A stretch of 64,000 nt of DNA, from assembly GCA_937868095.1 (NCBI GenBank), contig CALMLO010000032.1, forward strand, positions 62,001-126,000. Reading direction: 5' to 3'. The translations under genes were made by a program, and so were the position numbers. Origin of the DNA: an uncultured Phycisphaerales bacterium. GTDB taxonomy: Bacteria; Planctomycetota; Phycisphaerae; Sedimentisphaerales; Anaerohalosphaeraceae. Shown piece by piece: positions 50,661-60,929 of the stretch. Position 1 is the stretch's first letter. Each line of letters begins with the position of its first letter. The notes under the pieces are model-generated. The model was given only the letters and a program-made list of their open reading frames with translations. It had not been told where the DNA came from and did not search any database.

Positions 50661-52247
50661 TTGAGTAAAAAAACTGAAAAGCGATCCTGCGAATCTTCAG
50701 AGTGTCGGGCTGAAGGAATCTACCATTTCCTGGAATGGCTGGTTACAGCACTGGCTTCGACGCTGGTTTTTATTGTCTTTCTTATGCAGGTTTACCGGAT
50801 TCCAACCGGCAGCATGGCGGATACGCTGAAGGGTGCTCATTTTCGTTTGCGCTGTGAGCAGTGCGGTTATCGGTATGACTACGATTTTTCTCCCAGTCAG
50901 TACAAGATGAAGGAAAATGTGTTTCCGAATCAGGATTTGCCGATTCGGAAAGAGTGCCGCTGTCCGAGCTGCGGGTATGCTTATCGGGTGTGGATGCGGG
51001 AAAAGGACCCTCTCTACCACCAGCGGGTGTATAAGGGCGATCAGATTTTTGTTCTGAAATGTGTGTATCAGTTTTTTGAGCCGAACCGGTGGGATGTGGT
51101 GGTGTTTAAGAACCCGCTGGAGCCGAAAATTAATTATATCAAACGGCTGATTGGAAAAGCGGGAGAGAAGGTCGAAATTATTGACGGGGATATTTATATA
51201 AATGACCGAATTATGCGAAAGCCCCCTGCTGTGCAGGAGGAACTGTGGATGCCGATTTACGAGAATGACTATCAGCCCGTTCATCCGGAAGAGTCGCGGT
51301 TTAACCGGCACCCCTGGCGGCAGCCGTTTGAAAATGTGGGGGCAAGCCGATGGGATTTGGGGGGAAGAGAAAGGCCGTTTTTTACGCTGGAGGAAAAAGA
51401 CCGAACCGTGCATCGTGTTCAGTATAATCCCCAGATTGGAAATGATTTTCGGGCGGTGTATGCGTATGATCCGCCGGATTTTATTCCCTATATGCCGATT
51501 TGCAGTGATTTGATGATTCGCTGCTGTCCGCAGATGAGTGCGGACAGCGGGTTGGGCTGTGAGCTGGGCAAATACGGCAGGCGATATCAGGGCTGGCTCC
51601 ATGGTGACGGCCGAATGGAAATTGTGAAGATAGGGGCAGGGGAAGAGAGAACCATTCTGGCGGAGGGAGCAGCGGAAATCAAGGATTCTTTTCAATGGAA
51701 GGAGTTTCGGTTTTTTCTGGCAGACCATCAGCTGGTGCTTGAATACGGGCAGACGAAATTGATTTATGACCTGGGACGCAGTGTTGAGGATGCAGGGACC
51801 GAGCGGCACATTTGGCCGGAGGCGGCGATTCTTGGATATGGAACGGTGCGGATTTTTCATATCGGTTTGTTCCGGGATATTTATTATATGAATACCGATG
51901 TGTCTGACCCGCAGCGTCCGATTCTGCAGGGAGGGGAGGGCAATCCAGTTATCCTTGGAGAAGATGAATTTTTTGTTTGCGGCGACAACAGCCCTTACAG
52001 TCTGGATTCTCGCTGGTGGAACCGGCCGGGGGTAGGGAATCGGGGACGCACCTACCGGCAGGGAATTGTTCCGCGAGAGTATCTTGTCGGAAAGGCGTTT
52101 TTTGTGCATTGGCCCGGCGGCTATCCGGTTATTCCCGGGTTTTTCCGTTTTATTCCGTATGTGGATGGGATGAAAGTGATTTATGGGGGAAGCCGAGGGT
52201 GGGATGTGAAGGAGCAGACGCCGGCTGCTGCGGAGAAACAGTTGTGA
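50661..52247 (+). CDS. lepB: Signal peptidase I with inserted zinc ribbon and extra domain, copy 1
   Basis: This 528-residue protein is a type I signal peptidase, nearly twice the usual length. A membrane helix (22-45) is followed by IPTGSMADTL with catalytic S51, and YIKRLIG gives the general base K161. The final box CGDNSPYSLDSRWW is present. Two insertions are unusual. A CxxC pair either side of residues 65-104 (RCEQCGY...CPSCGYAY) forms a zinc ribbon. About 250 residues between the Lys box and the last box contain ICSDLMIRCCPQ and an all-beta segment (RFFLADHQLVLEYG) like a laminin-G fold. The start is a TTG with a weak ribosome site, so a later start is possible. Confidence 0.88.
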   Translation: MSKKTEKRSCESSECRAEGIYHFLEWLVTALASTLVFIVFLMQVYRIPTGSMADTLKGAHFRLRCEQCGYRYDYDFSPSQYKMKENVFPNQDLPIRKECRCPSCGYAYRVWMREKDPLYHQRVYKGDQIFVLKCVYQFFEPNRWDVVVFKNPLEPKINYIKRLIGKAGEKVEIIDGDIYINDRIMRKPPAVQEELWMPIYENDYQPVHPEESRFNRHPWRQPFENVGASRWDLGGRERPFFTLEEKDRTVHRVQYNPQIGNDFRAVYAYDPPDFIPYMPICSDLMIRCCPQMSADSGLGCELGKYGRRYQGWLHGDGRMEIVKIGAGEERTILAEGAAEIKDSFQWKEFRFFLADHQLVLEYGQTKLIYDLGRSVEDAGTERHIWPEAAILGYGTVRIFHIGLFRDIYYMNTDVSDPQRPILQGGEGNPVILGEDEFFVCGDNSPYSLDSRWWNRPGVGNRGRTYRQGIVPREYLVGKAFFVHWPGGYPVIPGFFRFIPYVDGMKVIYGGSRGWDVKEQTPAAAEKQL

Positions 52248-53755
52248 AATTGGCAAGTCCCTCCAACGGTTTGTCAGGCGAATATCCCCGAGTGCGCCGC
52301 AGCAGGACGATTGAATCGACGGTGAATGCGCTGGATGGTCTGCTGGTGGCACTGATTTTGGCGCTGGTGTTTCGGGCGTTTGCGGTTGAGGCCTTTCAGA
52401 TTCCGACCGGCAGCATGGCTGAAACACTCAAAGGTGCTCATTGGCATCTGCGCTGTCTTCGCTGCGGGATTCCGTATGATTATGGAGCAGACTCGGGCTG
52501 GTCTGGACAGCCCTTGTGCCCGAACTGCGGGTATGAACAGCCGATGGCGGCGATGGGGGTGCTGGCCAACGGCGATCGGATTTTTGTCAATAAATGCATC
52601 TATCAACTTTCTGAACCGAAGCGATGGGATGTGGTGGTTTTTAAGAATCCGCCGAATCCTCAGGAAAATTATATTAAACGGCTGATTGGGCTGCCTGGGG
52701 AAGCCGTTGAGATTGCGGATGGTGATATTTACATCAATGGGCAAATTATGCGCAAACCGCGCAAAGTGCAGGAAGAACTGTGGACCTGTCTGTATCATAA
52801 TGATTATCAGGCCGGCTTTGCGAAGGGACGCTTTGAGTCGTCTGAAACGGAGAAAGCCCGACAGCCGTATTTGGAGCCGCCGTTTGAAACAGAGACCCCG
52901 AACGGCTGGGACCTGGCTTGCGGCGGGGGAACTGTTTTTCGTCTGCAGGCGAAGGATGGAGAGGAGCATTCGATTCGTTTTGTGCCTAACCGTCCGGATG
53001 CCTTTCGGGTTTCTTATGCTTATAATGGAGGAGGAGGAAGTCCCAACAGGCCGATTTGTTCGGATTTGATGATTCGGTTTTGGGTTCAGCCGACGCAAGC
53101 GTCCGGACAGGTTGGTGCTCTGGTGAGCAAGTACGGCGTTCGCTATATCGGGCGGTTTGATTTTTGGGGGCAGCTGGTTCTCGAAAGGGAGACGGCGGAG
53201 GGGGAGAAGTCAGAACTGCGAAAGATGGTGTTTTCGCCGGATTGGTCAAAAGGAGGGCTGTGGTTTGAGTTTGCCAATGTGGACCGCCGGCTGGTGATTC
53301 GCTGCGGAGAGTACCGGCTGTCGTATGATTTGAAAGAAGCCGATTTGACGGATTTGCCGGAGCGTTCGGCTCGCCGTCAGAATCCGGAGGTGAAGATACT
53401 CGGTCGAGGGTCGATGCAGCTTTTTCACATAGGACTTTATCGGGATATTTATTATCTGTCGGGAGATTCTCTGCGGGCTCGTCGGGGGCGGCCTTTTGAA
53501 CTGGAGCCGGATGAGTTTTTTGTCTGCGGGGATAATACGCCTAACAGTTTTGACAGTCGGCAATGGACGACGGAAGGTATCGGCAACAACGGCAAACGCT
53601 ATCGGGAGGGAGTGGTGCCGCGTGATTTTATGATGGGCAAGGCCTTTTTTGTGTATTGGTCGGATGCTTTTCGTCCGCGTGAGTCTATGATGCCGGTGAT
53701 CCCGAATTTGGATCGGCTGCAGGTGATTTACGGCGGTTCTGAAGAAATCTATTAG
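52244..53755 (+). CDS. lepB: Signal peptidase I with inserted zinc ribbon and extra domain, copy 2
   Basis: This 503-residue paralogue of the preceding gene starts at a GTG that overlaps its stop (GTGA). Catalytic S57 lies in IPTGSMAETL and K145 in YIKRLIG, with CGDNTPNSFDSRQW at the end. The zinc ribbon uses C71, C74, C92 and C95. The same inserted all-beta domain (ICSDLMIRFWVQ; GLWFEFANVDRRLVI) is present. Both copies keep complete active sites, so the pair probably arose by tandem duplication and both may work. The start was placed at the GTGA overlap because longer frames run into copy 1. Confidence 0.9.
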   Translation: MKLASPSNGLSGEYPRVRRSRTIESTVNALDGLLVALILALVFRAFAVEAFQIPTGSMAETLKGAHWHLRCLRCGIPYDYGADSGWSGQPLCPNCGYEQPMAAMGVLANGDRIFVNKCIYQLSEPKRWDVVVFKNPPNPQENYIKRLIGLPGEAVEIADGDIYINGQIMRKPRKVQEELWTCLYHNDYQAGFAKGRFESSETEKARQPYLEPPFETETPNGWDLACGGGTVFRLQAKDGEEHSIRFVPNRPDAFRVSYAYNGGGGSPNRPICSDLMIRFWVQPTQASGQVGALVSKYGVRYIGRFDFWGQLVLERETAEGEKSELRKMVFSPDWSKGGLWFEFANVDRRLVIRCGEYRLSYDLKEADLTDLPERSARRQNPEVKILGRGSMQLFHIGLYRDIYYLSGDSLRARRGRPFELEPDEFFVCGDNTPNSFDSRQWTTEGIGNNGKRYREGVVPRDFMMGKAFFVYWSDAFRPRESMMPVIPNLDRLQVIYGGSEEIY

Positions 53756-53777: not shown

Positions 53778-53816
53778 AAAAAAACGCCGGCTGCCATGCG
53801 GGCATCCGGCGTTTTT
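53778..53816. terminator. Bidirectional terminator between convergent genes
   Basis: AAAAACGCCGG (53780-53790) and CCGGCGTTTTT (53806-53816) form a perfect stem that continues with TGCC/GGCA. Runs of A before and T after make it work on both strands, for the signal peptidase pair and for the tubulin-like gene. Confidence 0.85.
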
Positions 53817-53839: not shown

Positions 53840-55183
53840 TTAGACCGTGACCAGGCGGGTTGAAGTGAGTTCTTCCACTCGAGAGGTCGGGAAGTCCAGG
53901 CCGCCAATGATGGTGTACACCCGGAGCGTTTCGCGGCCGTCTTCGTAGATACCGCGGTGGATGGTTGCATTGCCTGTGAGGTCGGCCAGCACGTCGAAAG
54001 CGAAGTTGATGTTGTCCTGCAGGTTGGGGGTATTGGCCATCATCTGTTTGCCGCCGACAACGATGCAGCCGGCTACCTTGGCCGTGCTCAAGTCGAAGCC
54101 GTTGCTCAGAAGGGTCTTTTCGAGATTCTGTTTGACGGCGCTGCTGAGGGCGAACCGATCTCTGAACTTTTCGACGCGGGTCAGGCCCATAATGGCGCAT
54201 CCACCGGCTTTCAGGATGCTCTGGTAATCGACGGGGTCCAGCGTGGTGTAGGGACTGCTGAGAGAGCTGAGCCGATTGAAGATATCGAACATTCCGGCTA
54301 CGGTGTTGTTGACGCTTGGCCAGAACTCCCGGACAGTCTTGCCCGGATACATTCGGCTGATTTTTTCATTGTCGATGATAATCAGCGGTGAGATTTGTCC
54401 TTTGGCGGCCATCTGTCCCAGTTCGACGGAAACGCGATAGGCGTTTTCGGCTACCTGAGGCGAGTTGGCTTCGCCGTTGGTCGGCAGGGTCATCAGTACG
54501 CCAACGTGTTTGTTGGGGTCGGTTTTTCCGATGGAATAGACATAATCCTTGGCAATGCTCACCATCTCTGCAGCACTGCCGCCGCCGGTTCCGCCGCCGG
54601 CTCCGAAGCAGACCATGACGTGATCGACTTCTGTACCGAAGGTCTTGCGTGTCAGATGGAGAATGTCCTGATGCCACTGGCCGGCTGCCTCCTGGCCGCG
54701 GCTCATATCTTTGCCGGCTCCCTTTTCGCCGATGTCCATCAGGAATTTCTGAGAGGGCGGCAGAGCCAGCGTGTCGAGGTCGTGATAGGTGGTGTTTACG
54801 GCTATGGCTTTTTTATAGCCGAGGTCATAGAAGGCCTTGGCAAGCCGTCCGCCGCACTGGCCGCTTCCAATCCATGCGAACCGGGTGGAGCCCACAAAAT
54901 TGTCCTTGACGCCCGTTTCAGAAACGGGTCTGACCTCATACTTTTCGAGGTCCAGGACCGGGATAATCTCCTTTTTGGCTGGTTTCGGTGCCGGGGCCTT
55001 TACTTGAACTACTTGAGTCGTTACGGATTTTTTAGGAGTTGATTTCTTTGCGACCGCGGGGGTTGCGGAAACTTTTGCCGTTTTCTTAGGAGTTTTGGGG
55101 GAACTCTTGGGGGTGGAGGTTTTGGCGACCCTTTTTACGCTCTTGCGGACGCCCTTTTTTGAAGACTTCTTTTTGGCTGTCAT
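53840..55183 (-). CDS. Tubulin/FtsZ-family GTPase with lysine-rich histone-H1-like tail
   Basis: This 447-residue protein has an N-terminal tail of about 75 residues made of Lys, Pro, Ala, Ser and Thr repeats (KKSSKKGVRKSVKR; TPKSSPKTPKK), like histone H1 tails. The tubulin/FtsZ GTPase core follows: IGSGQCGGRLAKAF (105-118) and the signature CFGAGGGTGGGSA (192-204), with the loop GEKGAGKD near 152. The T7 loop that supplies the catalytic Asp in FtsZ is not clear in the next segment (NNTVAGMFDIFN), so polymer-linked GTP hydrolysis may differ. It is not a normal FtsZ and no division genes are near. Its tail could bind DNA, RNA or membrane. Confidence 0.82.
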   Translation of the reverse strand: MTAKKKSSKKGVRKSVKRVAKTSTPKSSPKTPKKTAKVSATPAVAKKSTPKKSVTTQVVQVKAPAPKPAKKEIIPVLDLEKYEVRPVSETGVKDNFVGSTRFAWIGSGQCGGRLAKAFYDLGYKKAIAVNTTYHDLDTLALPPSQKFLMDIGEKGAGKDMSRGQEAAGQWHQDILHLTRKTFGTEVDHVMVCFGAGGGTGGGSAAEMVSIAKDYVYSIGKTDPNKHVGVLMTLPTNGEANSPQVAENAYRVSVELGQMAAKGQISPLIIIDNEKISRMYPGKTVREFWPSVNNTVAGMFDIFNRLSSLSSPYTTLDPVDYQSILKAGGCAIMGLTRVEKFRDRFALSSAVKQNLEKTLLSNGFDLSTAKVAGCIVVGGKQMMANTPNLQDNINFAFDVLADLTGNATIHRGIYEDGRETLRVYTIIGGLDFPTSRVEELTSTRLVTV

Positions 55184-55518
55184 TTTGTACTCCTTACAAA
55201 TTGCTCTTGTGATTTTAAAAGATTACTTCTGCAAGTAACCCTACATTTTTAGGCCCGCTATGGCCTTTTTCTTGTCGGCTTGTTTTTTGTCGGTGATTTC
55301 AAGAGAGGAATTAACGCTTTCCGTTAAAAAATGAAATTTTGAGTCGGAAAGATGAGAAAAAAGCAAAATAGACCTTACTTGGGGGGTTATAAGATCGAAC
55401 TTTGCGTCCGATAAATGAATCGGGTTTTAGAACCGACTTGTATGGAAAAACCGTCTGCTTGTCATCGATTCGGCGAGCGGGTATAAAGAAGAGGAGCGTT
55501 GGAAATGTTGAGGTTGAG
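55184..55518. other. Intergenic region upstream of the tubulin-like gene
   Basis: 335 bases between the divergent tubulin-like and HAD genes. The minus-strand leader holds a hairpin TTACTT-GCAG-AAGTAA (about 55224-55239) before the tubulin start. On the plus strand AGGCC-CGCTAT-GGCCT followed by five T (about 55251-55271) looks like a terminator for an antisense RNA. No promoter was recognised with confidence. Confidence 0.4.
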
Positions 55519-56181
55519 ATGAAGCATCCGGTTGTTAGCAGTAAGGGAGGTGCTGCTGCAAAAAGGGGAATAAAGTTGGCGAAGATTGAAGCGGTTATTT
55601 TTGATTTAGGCGGTGTGCTGATCGATGTTCATCTGGAGCCGCTGCGGAGACGGCTTGAAAGAAGAGGGCTGCCGGATCTGGCTGAAGAGATTCGCCGGCA
55701 GCCGCAGGCGGCTCTTCTGAACAGCGGACGGATTGGGCCGCAGGATTTTTACCGCTGGGTTGAGCAGCGATACGCTTTGGGATTGACTTTTGAGGAGTTT
55801 CGAGAGGCCTGGTGCAGCATTTTTTCGCCGAGGCCGGCGATGGAGGAGCTGGTTCGGCAGCTTGCCGGGAAGGTTCGACTGGGGCTTTTGTCGGATACGG
55901 ACCCGATGCATTGGGGGCATCTGTGCCGGCATTATCGATTTCTTGAATTGTTCCCGCGACCGGTGCTGAGCTTTCAGGTGGGGGCGGTTAAGCCGTCGGA
56001 AGTGATGTATCAGGCGGCTGCTGAGTCGGTTGGGACAGCGGCGGGACGGTGTTTTTATACGGATGACCTGCCTGAAAATGTAGAGGGCGCCCGACGGGCG
56101 GGGATGAGGGCTGTACTCTTTGAAAGCCCCGCTCAGATTGAACAATTGCTGAAGGAAGAAAATCTGCTGGAAACAGTATAA
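55519..56181 (+). CDS. HAD-superfamily hydrolase
   Basis: This protein (220 residues from the ATG at 55519) is a haloacid dehalogenase-type phosphatase. Motif I is VIFDLGGVLIDVH, motif II is LGLLSDTDPMHW, the motif III Lys is in VGAVKPSEVMY, and motif IV is FYTDDLPENVEGARRAGM. The pattern is that of the YihX/alpha-D-glucose-1-phosphatase-like group. A TTG at 55576, with AGGGG 7 bases upstream, gives a start just before motif I and may be the true one. The substrate is unknown. Confidence 0.85.
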   Translation: MKHPVVSSKGGAAAKRGIKLAKIEAVIFDLGGVLIDVHLEPLRRRLERRGLPDLAEEIRRQPQAALLNSGRIGPQDFYRWVEQRYALGLTFEEFREAWCSIFSPRPAMEELVRQLAGKVRLGLLSDTDPMHWGHLCRHYRFLELFPRPVLSFQVGAVKPSEVMYQAAAESVGTAAGRCFYTDDLPENVEGARRAGMRAVLFESPAQIEQLLKEENLLETV

Positions 56182-58935: not shown

Positions 58936-60651
58936 TCAGGCCATTTCGAGCAGGTTCAACCCGTCCATTTCGTGGAGGGATTTTCCGGTGGGCACCATCG
59001 GCCAGACGTTTTCTTCGGGGTCCACATAGAAATCAGCGAGGCAGGGCTTTTTTTCCTCGAGCATGGCTTTGATGACCGCTGGCACTTCTTCTTTTTTGCG
59101 GGCGGAAAGGCCGACGGCTCCGAAGGCCTCTGCCAAACGGGCGAAGTCGGGGTTTTTCAGGGAGCTGCAGGAATAGCGTCGGCCGTAAAACAGTTCCTGC
59201 CACTGGCGGACCATGCCCATGTAGCCGTTGTTAATCAGGCAAATCTTGATCGGCAGTTCATACATTACAGCGGTGGACAATTCGGTCAGGGTCATATTGA
59301 AGCTGCTGTCGCCGTCAATGTCGACGACCAATGCCCCCGGATTGCCAATTTGCGCGCCGATGGCGGCAGGCAGTCCAAAGCCCATCGTGCCCAGCCCGCC
59401 GGAGGTAATGAACTGGCGGGGGCGGCTGAATTTGTAAAACTGGGCCGTCCACATTTGATGCTGTCCGACGCCGGTGGTGATGATGGCCTGGCCCTGCGTC
59501 TGATGCCAGAGTTCCTCGATGACGTATTGCGGTTTGATCATCTTGGAGTTTCGATCATAGCGGAGCGGATAACGTTTTTTTAATTCGGCGATTCGCTCGA
59601 ACCATTCCTTGCGTTCCCTGTATTCGACCTGCTCGAGCAGGTCCGCCAGAACATAGCGAGCGTTTCCAACGACCGGGATGTCCACCGGCACGTTTTTGGC
59701 GATGCTGGATGGGTCCAGGTCGATGTGAATGATTCGAGCGTGGGATGCAAAGGTTTTCAGTTTGCCTGTGACCCGGTCATCAAAACGGGCACCGACGCAA
59801 ATCAGCAAATCAGATTCCTGGACAGCAAAGTTGGCATAAGCGGCTCCGTGCATTCCGAGCATATCAAGAGAGAGGGGGTCATTCTGGTCAAATGCTCCCA
59901 GTCCCATCAGGGTCATCGTGACCGGAATATTGGCCTTCTTGGCGAGTTTTCGGAGGGGCTCAGAGGCATTGCCGCTGATGACACCGCCGCCGACATAGAG
60001 GACAGGACGCTGGGAGGCGTTGATGGCCTCGGCAGCACTGCTGATTTGTCGGGCGTGGCCGTGTTCCCGGACGCGATAGCCCGGCAGTTCAATGGGTTGC
60101 GGCGGTGTTACCGGGACCTGGGCAACTTGCATGTCAACGGGAATATCAATCAGCACCGGGCCGGGTCTTCCTGTGGAAGCGATATAGAAGGCCTCGCGGA
60201 TGGTGTGAGCCAGGTCGTTGGGATTTTTGATGATAACATTGTGTTTCGTAATCGGCCGCGTGATGCCGGTAGTATCGGCTTCCTGGAAGGCGTCATTGCC
60301 GATCAGGTCTGTGCGAACCTGGCCGGTAAGGGCGACAATGGGCACGGAATCCATCATTGCGGTAGCCAGACCGGTCGTCAAGTTGGTTGCGCCGGGCCCT
60401 GAGGTGGCGATCATGACGCCAACCTTGCCGGTGGAACGGGCATAAGCATCGGCCATATGACAGCCGCCTTGTTCGTGCCGCGGAATTATCACTCGTATTG
60501 GTGAATCGTACAATTTGTCAAACAGCGGCAGGACAACACCTCCGAGGTAGCCGAAAAGGACTTCAACCCCTTGCTCAAGCAGGGTATCCACGATAATTTG
60601 GCTGCCTGGTTTGGTTTGTGCCGGAGCTGTTTGTTCTGTTTTGGTCGTCAT
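58936..60651 (-). CDS. ilvB: Acetolactate synthase large (catalytic) subunit
   Basis: This 571-residue ThDP enzyme condenses pyruvate to acetolactate. The N-terminal Pyr domain has VEVLFGYLGGVVLPLFDKL and RHEQGGCHMADAYARSTGK, with the catalytic Glu of the HEQ block. The FAD-like central domain and the PP domain follow (GDSSFNMTLTELSTAVMYEL for ThDP-Mg). FGYLGG is usually FGYPGG in the family. Its ATG overlaps the stop of the upstream leader ORF (ATGA). AGGAGAG lies 5 bases before the ATG. Confidence 0.96.
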   Translation of the reverse strand: MTTKTEQTAPAQTKPGSQIIVDTLLEQGVEVLFGYLGGVVLPLFDKLYDSPIRVIIPRHEQGGCHMADAYARSTGKVGVMIATSGPGATNLTTGLATAMMDSVPIVALTGQVRTDLIGNDAFQEADTTGITRPITKHNVIIKNPNDLAHTIREAFYIASTGRPGPVLIDIPVDMQVAQVPVTPPQPIELPGYRVREHGHARQISSAAEAINASQRPVLYVGGGVISGNASEPLRKLAKKANIPVTMTLMGLGAFDQNDPLSLDMLGMHGAAYANFAVQESDLLICVGARFDDRVTGKLKTFASHARIIHIDLDPSSIAKNVPVDIPVVGNARYVLADLLEQVEYRERKEWFERIAELKKRYPLRYDRNSKMIKPQYVIEELWHQTQGQAIITTGVGQHQMWTAQFYKFSRPRQFITSGGLGTMGFGLPAAIGAQIGNPGALVVDIDGDSSFNMTLTELSTAVMYELPIKICLINNGYMGMVRQWQELFYGRRYSCSSLKNPDFARLAEAFGAVGLSARKKEEVPAVIKAMLEEKKPCLADFYVDPEENVWPMVPTGKSLHEMDGLNLLEMA

Positions 60652-60929
60652 AGCACTCTCCTGGTTCGGTAAAGATTGGTTCCAATAAGATGGATTGGCT
60701 CCTCCGTGCTGTGCCCCTGCAGGGCCGCAGGACGGAGGTGGTGTACAAAACCCGCCGAGTCCGGACTGAGTCGATAGATGGCATCAAAAAGCGGCTGCAC
60801 CGAAGCTCCTGGATAGCCGAAGATTATTTTAACACCCAATGCACGGAGGGTTTCGAAAATGATTTCGCTTCCGGATTTAAAACCTGAGGACGGCGCCGAA
60901 GCGCCCGACGGGTGGGATTGAATTGTCAT
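60648..60929 (-). pseudogene. Truncated IlvB N-terminal fragment upstream of ilvB (possible leader ORF)
   Basis: This open reading frame of 93 codons has SGSEIIFETLRALGVKIIFG, then YPGASVQPLFDAIYR, which matches the first ThDP half-domain of IlvB next door. It retains FGYPGA where ilvB has FGYLGG. The match stops at about residue 52, before the catalytic HEQ block, and the rest (FVHHLRPAALQGHSTEE) is unrelated. It has its own AGGAG and ATG, and its stop overlaps the ilvB ATG. It could be a relic of a duplication or a translated leader that controls ilvB. A hairpin with arms CCTCCGT/ACGGAGG (60701-60738) lies inside it. Confidence 0.7.
60701..60738 (-). other. Hairpin inside the ilvB leader ORF
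   Basis: CCTCCGT (60701-60707) pairs with ACGGAGG (60732-60738), and the 24-base interior holds the palindrome CCCTGCAGGG. It lies about 50 bases upstream of the ilvB ATG, inside the fragment ORF, so ribosome position could affect it. Confidence 0.55.

Follow-up and report, generated by a model that had tools for sequence, protein, structure and literature searches.

The gene examined here lies on the minus strand at 53840–55183 of the window, by which we mean the whole 64,000-nucleotide stretch that was analysed, taken from contig CALMLO010000032.1 of an uncultured Phycisphaerales bacterium. It encodes a TubZ-like protein of 447 amino acids with a basic N-terminal tail, as supported by the open reading frame, family matches, a predicted structural model and codon bias, and its assignment to the tubulin-superfamily GTPases is near certain. 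With regard to its function, we give about an even chance to the reading that it is a chromosomal, phage-related protein that forms a GTP-dependent filament tethered to DNA by the basic tail. A wider history is put forward only tentatively: a captured phage tubulin may have gained a histone-like DNA-binding tail and become a chromosomal, DNA-moving cytoskeleton, and a paralogue may repeatedly have become a cap or activator that does without GTP and bears the T7 loop, in one family with an AAA lid and a helix-turn-helix (HTH).

The GTPase and C-terminal domains occupy residues 101–447 (53843–54883, on the minus strand like all features of the gene given below), where both Pfam and the predicted model place a TubZ/FtsZ fold. 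The initial annotation, made from the sequence alone, had recognized a core with the tubulin/FtsZ signature, and this is borne out by the intact loops GSGQCGG (residues 106–112), GAGK (155–158) and GAGGGTGGGSA (the T4 glycine loop, residues 194–204, 54572–54604) and by a match to Pfam Tubulin (PF00091) of 36.5 bits, above its cut-off of 33. In the glycine loop, G194, G196–198, G200 and G202 are found in 100% of the 67 intact planctomycete and phage relatives. The same annotation had found the catalytic T7 Asp pattern unclear. That doubt is resolved, because both acidic residues of the T7 stretch Y-T-T-L-D316-P-V-D319-Y (catalytic loop D316-P-V-D319, 54227–54238) are present and conserved, D316 in 100% and D319 in 99% of these 67 relatives and both in 100% of the copies in which the GTP loops are lost. 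The position of the T7 Asn of FtsZ is taken by Thr or Ser in this family. The GTPase residues, D316 and D319 included, are intact in the window protein and common to its phage relatives.

As far as sequence models can tell, the protein lies inside the superfamily and outside every named family. The scores fell below the cut-offs for NCBIfam FtsZ (TIGR00065; 48.6 bits against 295.2), for TubZ-like_C (PF22453; 20.1 against 26) and for Tubulin_2, also called FtsZ-like 1 (PF13809; 21.1 against 27, a partial match around the glycine loop), and no match of the window protein to the PHROG families, including PhuZ phrog_4733, was found at E 0.01. TubZ-like_C did score above its cut-off in one homologue (L170:7627-8808). 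An identity as FtsZ-like 1 was rejected on the score below cut-off; the matches of relatives to that family are mostly these same tubulin genes. When a profile of the family was compared with PDB sequences, TubZ (RepX) came top at 132.9 bits, followed by CetZ at 91.8 and FtsZ at 88.7 or less.

Comparison of structures, a check that the initial annotation had suggested, likewise put the core nearest to TubZ, then CetZ and then FtsZ. The AlphaFold2 model has a confidence score (pLDDT) of about 90–98 for the greater part of the core, falling to about 40 in the tail, and the superfamily fold is predicted to span both the GTPase and the C-terminal domains. The closest solved fold to this predicted model is that of B. 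cereus TubZ (Z 38.9, root-mean-square deviation 2.3 Å, 333 residues), with TubZ also at rank 1 in Foldseek; CetZ2 (Z 36.0), c-st TubZ (Z 32.9) and FtsZ (Z 31.3 or less) follow. The model ends with a helix at residues 433–445, and as the protein stops two residues beyond this helix, at residue 447, it has no counterpart of the C-terminal tail found in TubZ and PhuZ.

The basic tail comprises residues 1–73 (54965–55183), has a net charge of +22 and is predicted to be disordered (pLDDT about 40–60). It consists of 29% Lys, 25% Ser/Thr, 12% Ala and 11% Pro; it is thus H1-like, being rich in Lys, Ala, Pro and Thr, strongly basic and disordered in the predicted model. The initial annotation had described an H1-like tail of 75 residues; its basic composition holds, and the tail is here placed at the N-terminus, as residues 1–73. 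A strongly basic N-terminus is kept in almost all tail-bearing homologues, across three families of the order, which rules out a local insertion, an outcome that the annotation had itself allowed for. In tailed planctomycete homologues, the segment preceding the linker has 48–274 residues and a net charge of +17 to +103, with repeats that vary by genus (for example KKRTTTKAAA and KPKATKKSTAS). Since the repeats differ between genera yet stay basic, what is conserved in the tail is its chemistry rather than its sequence. The linker that follows, IPVLDLEKYEV (residues 74–84, 54932–54964), is common to tailed and tail-less planctomycete copies and partly to phage N-termini; its positions P2, L4 and E7 are at least 90% conserved (21 sequences), and this conservation makes it a candidate short interaction motif.

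The relatives of the protein outside the planctomycetes point to phages. A scan of IMG/VR gave 86 relatives with identities of up to 51% over the whole core, and among the matches listed the nearest non-planctomycete relatives found were the tubulins of uncultured tailed phages. Many of the contigs clearly belong to tailed phages, with genes for a large terminase (phrog_2), a T4-type portal (PF07230), UvsX recombinase, a gp32-like protein, SbcCD and helicases. Mislabelled bacterial DNA is ruled out for those contigs on which a terminase, T4-type portal, UvsX or gp32-like gene is present. A terminase or portal cluster was within the stretch examined in 46 of 80 phage loci, the terminase cluster, where present, being 1–4 genes from the phage tubulin; both clusters (cluster 34, terminase; cluster 1, portal) were assigned from sequence and position, not from a family match. 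The cluster 1 gene, which encodes about 650 amino acids and is situated between the large terminase and the tubulin (L066-L113, e.g. L076:2778-4847), had no PHROG or Pfam match, and its sequence and position suggest a divergent portal. As for the phage tubulins, their main match in PHROGs is a family of unknown function, and PHROG 4733 (tubulin PhuZ) matched one phage member weakly. In BFVD, PhuZ of phage Noxifer was listed at rank 3. The sole match among annotated phage records was the distant gp138 of Bacillus phage G (L187:5992-7122).

The planctomycete genes group together as a single clade (100/99) in a tree of 57 proteins, with seven phage proteins as sister group (97/89); when the tree is rooted on another phage group, the planctomycete clade falls inside the phage diversity. 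A quick tree that included FtsZ, TubZ and PhuZ gave the same picture, with long branches. Every fully readable phage N-terminus is acidic (net −3 to −20), and the lone exception, L065, is a fragment. Judged from these sequences, the simplest history is probably a single phage capture by an ancestor of the planctomycete group, with the acidic N-terminus swapped for a basic one; the gene would then share its ancestry with the tubulins of the uncultured tailed phages.

The phage sister clade and the opposite N-terminal charges of phage and host copies would also suit a defence role, in which a domesticated phage tubulin acts as a decoy and its oppositely charged subunits enter and spoil the filaments of phages with acidic tubulins. 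The patchy spread of the gene in the order and the repeated loss of GTP loops in paralogues, both described below, fit this idea as well. However, no defence genes were seen alongside the tubulin, the phage contigs have no assigned hosts, and evolution of the core is slow, with an identity of about 0.9 among members of the genus. In two families the gene also keeps a stable synteny with gap, pgk, rpe and accD, which is easier to reconcile with a housekeeping role. We consider such a decoy very improbable.

Many genomes contain a second, tail-less copy, which is in tandem in G014, G007, G022, G437, G459 and G435 and at a separate locus in the window's genus (G000:C57, locus L027). In the six paralogue sequences of this genus, N130, most of GAGK 155–158, GGGTG 196–200, N247 and N272 are lost in most or all, and D316, D319, F302, N303, H409, G411 and Y413 are kept in 6/6. 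With these GTP loops lost, GTP binding is not expected from the sequence of the paralogue. Damage to the GTP loops is also seen elsewhere in the tree, in the copies of G007 and of family f7. The f7 paralogue ends in an AAA+ lid (AAA_lid_14, PF25601; 57–63 bits, 3/3 tested), and the fusion loci (L170:5726-7549, L171:6825-8579 and L172:6687-8285) have this lid, a domain of AAA+ activators, but no AAA+ ATPase core. In one of the three fusions (L172), a Fis-type HTH (HTH_8, PF02954) passed its cut-off of 22 at 23.1 bits. The AAA-lid fusion is carried by the paralogue adjacent to the tubulin in G435, G437 and G459, the last of which has a tail of +17. That tail reduction goes with a fused adjacent paralogue is suggestive only, as these cases are related to each other.

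Such degenerate paralogues imply that the system tolerates losing GTPase activity, and together with the long H1-like tails they would suit a protein that compacts RNA or the nucleoid and for which the GTPase fold is a platform for oligomerisation and not for dynamic filaments. The tailed copies, however, retain the full GTPase site, which points to a GTP cycle, and compaction of this kind appears improbable.

If the protein does form a DNA-tethered filament, the subunits would bind GTP via the intact T1–T6 loops and stack head to tail, and the T7 Asp pair of one subunit would complete the GTPase site of its neighbour, as we infer from the conserved site and the TubZ fold. The disordered basic tails would run along the filament and grip nucleic acid, for which the nucleoid or a DNA cargo is the likeliest candidate. 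Their charge suggests this, as does the lysine cluster of TubY in TubZ partition systems, which binds DNA non-specifically and also binds lipids (PMC7762940). The tail would stand in for the separate TubR/tubC adaptor of plasmid systems, and the likely role of the filament would be the positioning or moving of chromosomal DNA. The tail-less paralogue may be a co-subunit or a regulator. In the window's genus, where its sequence is without the GTP loops and with the T7 face, it could occupy the GTP-bearing end of the filament, complete the catalytic site there, trigger hydrolysis, and by capping this end stop growth. The initial annotation, which proposed that the tail may tie a filament to the nucleoid, RNA or membrane, is partly supported as a whole; the phage relatives, the acidic phage N-termini, the paralogue without GTP loops and its fusion to an AAA lid (once with an HTH) were not part of it.

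Several observations weigh against a DNA-tethered filament of phage origin. TubZ and PhuZ assemble and bind their partners by means of a C-terminal tail, a flexible segment of 20–60 residues that is important for assembly (PMC5322520), and the family described here has none. Intact copies with a short tail or none are present in G435, G437, G438a and G450, and the tail is therefore dispensable for some copies. No iteron array was found at 55150–55650 and no adaptor gene beside the window tubulin; a partition operon with iterons was accordingly rejected, as no iteron-like centromere was seen. The Fis-type HTH is above its cut-off in just one of the three paralogue fusions. Rooting of the tree is uncertain too, which leaves the phage-to-host direction of transfer unproven. 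Finally, basic tails bind acidic lipids and RNA too, and the tail of TubY binds membrane as well as DNA.

Because the lysine cluster of TubY binds lipids in addition to DNA, an alternative is kept in which the same filament is tied by its basic tail to the acidic lipids of the inner membrane face and serves to shape or remodel the envelope. Binding to acidic membranes is within the reach of lysine-rich tails, as the lysine-rich amphipathic tail of TubY shows, which binds DNA as well (PMC7762940), and the presence of MreB in the window's genome makes an envelope cytoskeleton plausible. On the other hand, the tail described here is built from Lys/Ala/Thr/Pro repeats, for which the model (pLDDT about 40) shows no helix. 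The repeats extend up to 274 residues in other genomes, which is nearer to H1 than to a short amphipathic helix, and the paralogue fusion bears an HTH in one case and no membrane anchor. We regard a membrane tie as unlikely, though worth keeping in mind.

The tubulin family is present in 28 of 161 genomes of the order and in 14 of the 66 of good quality, and its members belong to families f1 (which includes the window genome and G014), f2 and f7; a wider scan of genome contigs gave at least 3 loci, and relatives in other bacterial phyla may exist. Among 392 genomes drawn from the phylum it was found in five, two of them with distant FHA-domain proteins. In another planctomycete family, distant relatives (L134:6620-9079 and L135:6417-8345, from genomes G222 and G194) combine an FHA domain at the N-terminus and a likely coiled coil with a tubulin domain that is degenerate and has no glycine loop. 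The gene order gap-pgk-rpe-tubulin-accD is conserved in f2 and f7 (names assigned from the sequences), and this speaks for vertical inheritance within a housekeeping context. No description of this tubulin family was found in the literature searched, which did not cover subscription papers.

Canonical FtsZ was above the TIGR00065 cut-off in 0/40 relatives, and in 13/14 control genomes it was detected, so it was not merely missed by annotation and the lineage is, as the initial annotation had supposed, without it. Phycisphaerae are reported to divide in a manner like binary fission without FtsZ, by a force generator that is unknown (PMC6952346). Both facts would favour the tubulin as the FtsZ replacement, a division-ring protein of these planctomycetes. 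The patchy spread, however, argues that it is not a general division protein, as close relatives without the gene must also divide; in addition, no division genes adjoin it and its fold is closest to TubZ rather than FtsZ. We find this role highly doubtful. The distinct cytoskeletal element envisaged by the annotation is upheld as a tubulin GTPase distinct from FtsZ and not as a general division element.

The gene itself is well supported. It has an ATG start with AAGGAG upstream, the end of which is 6 bases from the ATG. In comparisons of the core with three congeneric genomes, the differences at codon positions 1/2/3 were 19/17/128 (against G002), 22/17/128 and 20/18/121, with a ratio of synonymous to non-synonymous changed codons of about 3–4:1. 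This third-position bias indicates a genuine protein-coding gene, and together with conservation across 28 genomes it rules out a local artefact or a misread frame. An inverted repeat with 16-nucleotide arms (53780–53816, no strand assigned) lies directly past the stop codon, between the tubulin gene and a convergent Peptidase_S26 gene; it is likely a two-way terminator and suggests a single-gene transcript. No promoter-like site was seen near the gene.

The neighbours tested were two Peptidase_S26 genes, an HU gene and a HAD hydrolase gene, those nearest to the tubulin being Peptidase_S26 and the HAD hydrolase. No division gene was among them, in agreement with the initial annotation, and neither was a phage gene; with synteny conserved in the genus, a prophage origin of the window gene was rejected. 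The two signal-peptidase-like genes are in tandem (50661–52247 and 51977–53755), have open reading frames of 528 and 592 amino acids, far longer than usual, and match Peptidase_S26 in two stretches each; their adjacency to the tubulin is conserved in the genus. Elsewhere in the window, a 93-amino-acid remnant of an N-terminal thiamine pyrophosphate (TPP)-binding domain (60648–60929) is found just upstream of a complete acetolactate-synthase-like gene (58936–60651) and resembles a truncated duplicate.

How Phycisphaerae organise their DNA and divide is an open question, and planctomycetes are without FtsZ (PMC6952346). Should the proposed reading be true, a group without FtsZ would have a chromosomal TubZ-like tubulin that is clearly connected to phages, brings its own DNA tether and is accompanied by a natural subunit in which the GTP loops are missing. 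This would form a bridge between the filaments by which phages traffic DNA or capsids and the cellular cytoskeleton.

Among known systems, FtsZ belongs to the same superfamily and is alike in its GGGTG loop and T7 acidic pair, but the window family has Thr or Ser for the T7 Asn and no adjoining division genes. FtsZ-like 1 (Tubulin_2) proteins have a coiled coil, a helical C-terminal domain and, in some planctomycetes, a kinase domain (Makarova and Koonin 2010, PMC2875224), all of which are absent from the window protein. Archaeal CetZ provides the second-closest solved fold at about 22% identity, in an alignment that does not take in the basic N-terminal tail. Gp138 of Bacillus phage G, annotated as a putative FtsZ-like cell division protein, is distant (23–26% identity over most of the core) and groups with plasmid TubZ on a long branch. 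PhuZ of the nucleus-forming jumbo phages phiKZ and 201phi2-1 is likewise a phage-encoded tubulin but is far in sequence, phiKZ PhuZ having the longest branch (5.58). TubZ, of the plasmid type III partition system TubZRC and of Clostridium phage c-st, is the closest in solved fold and has similar GTPase loops and T7; its role is to move DNA, and TubY, which accompanies it in these systems, carries the lysine cluster with affinity for DNA and membrane (PMC7762940). In contrast to TubZ, to which it is about 20% identical, the window protein is chromosomal, has its basic tail at the N-terminus and has no C-terminal tail. No tubR-like gene or tubC-like repeats were seen near the window gene, and in place of TubR or TubY there is the tail-less paralogue.
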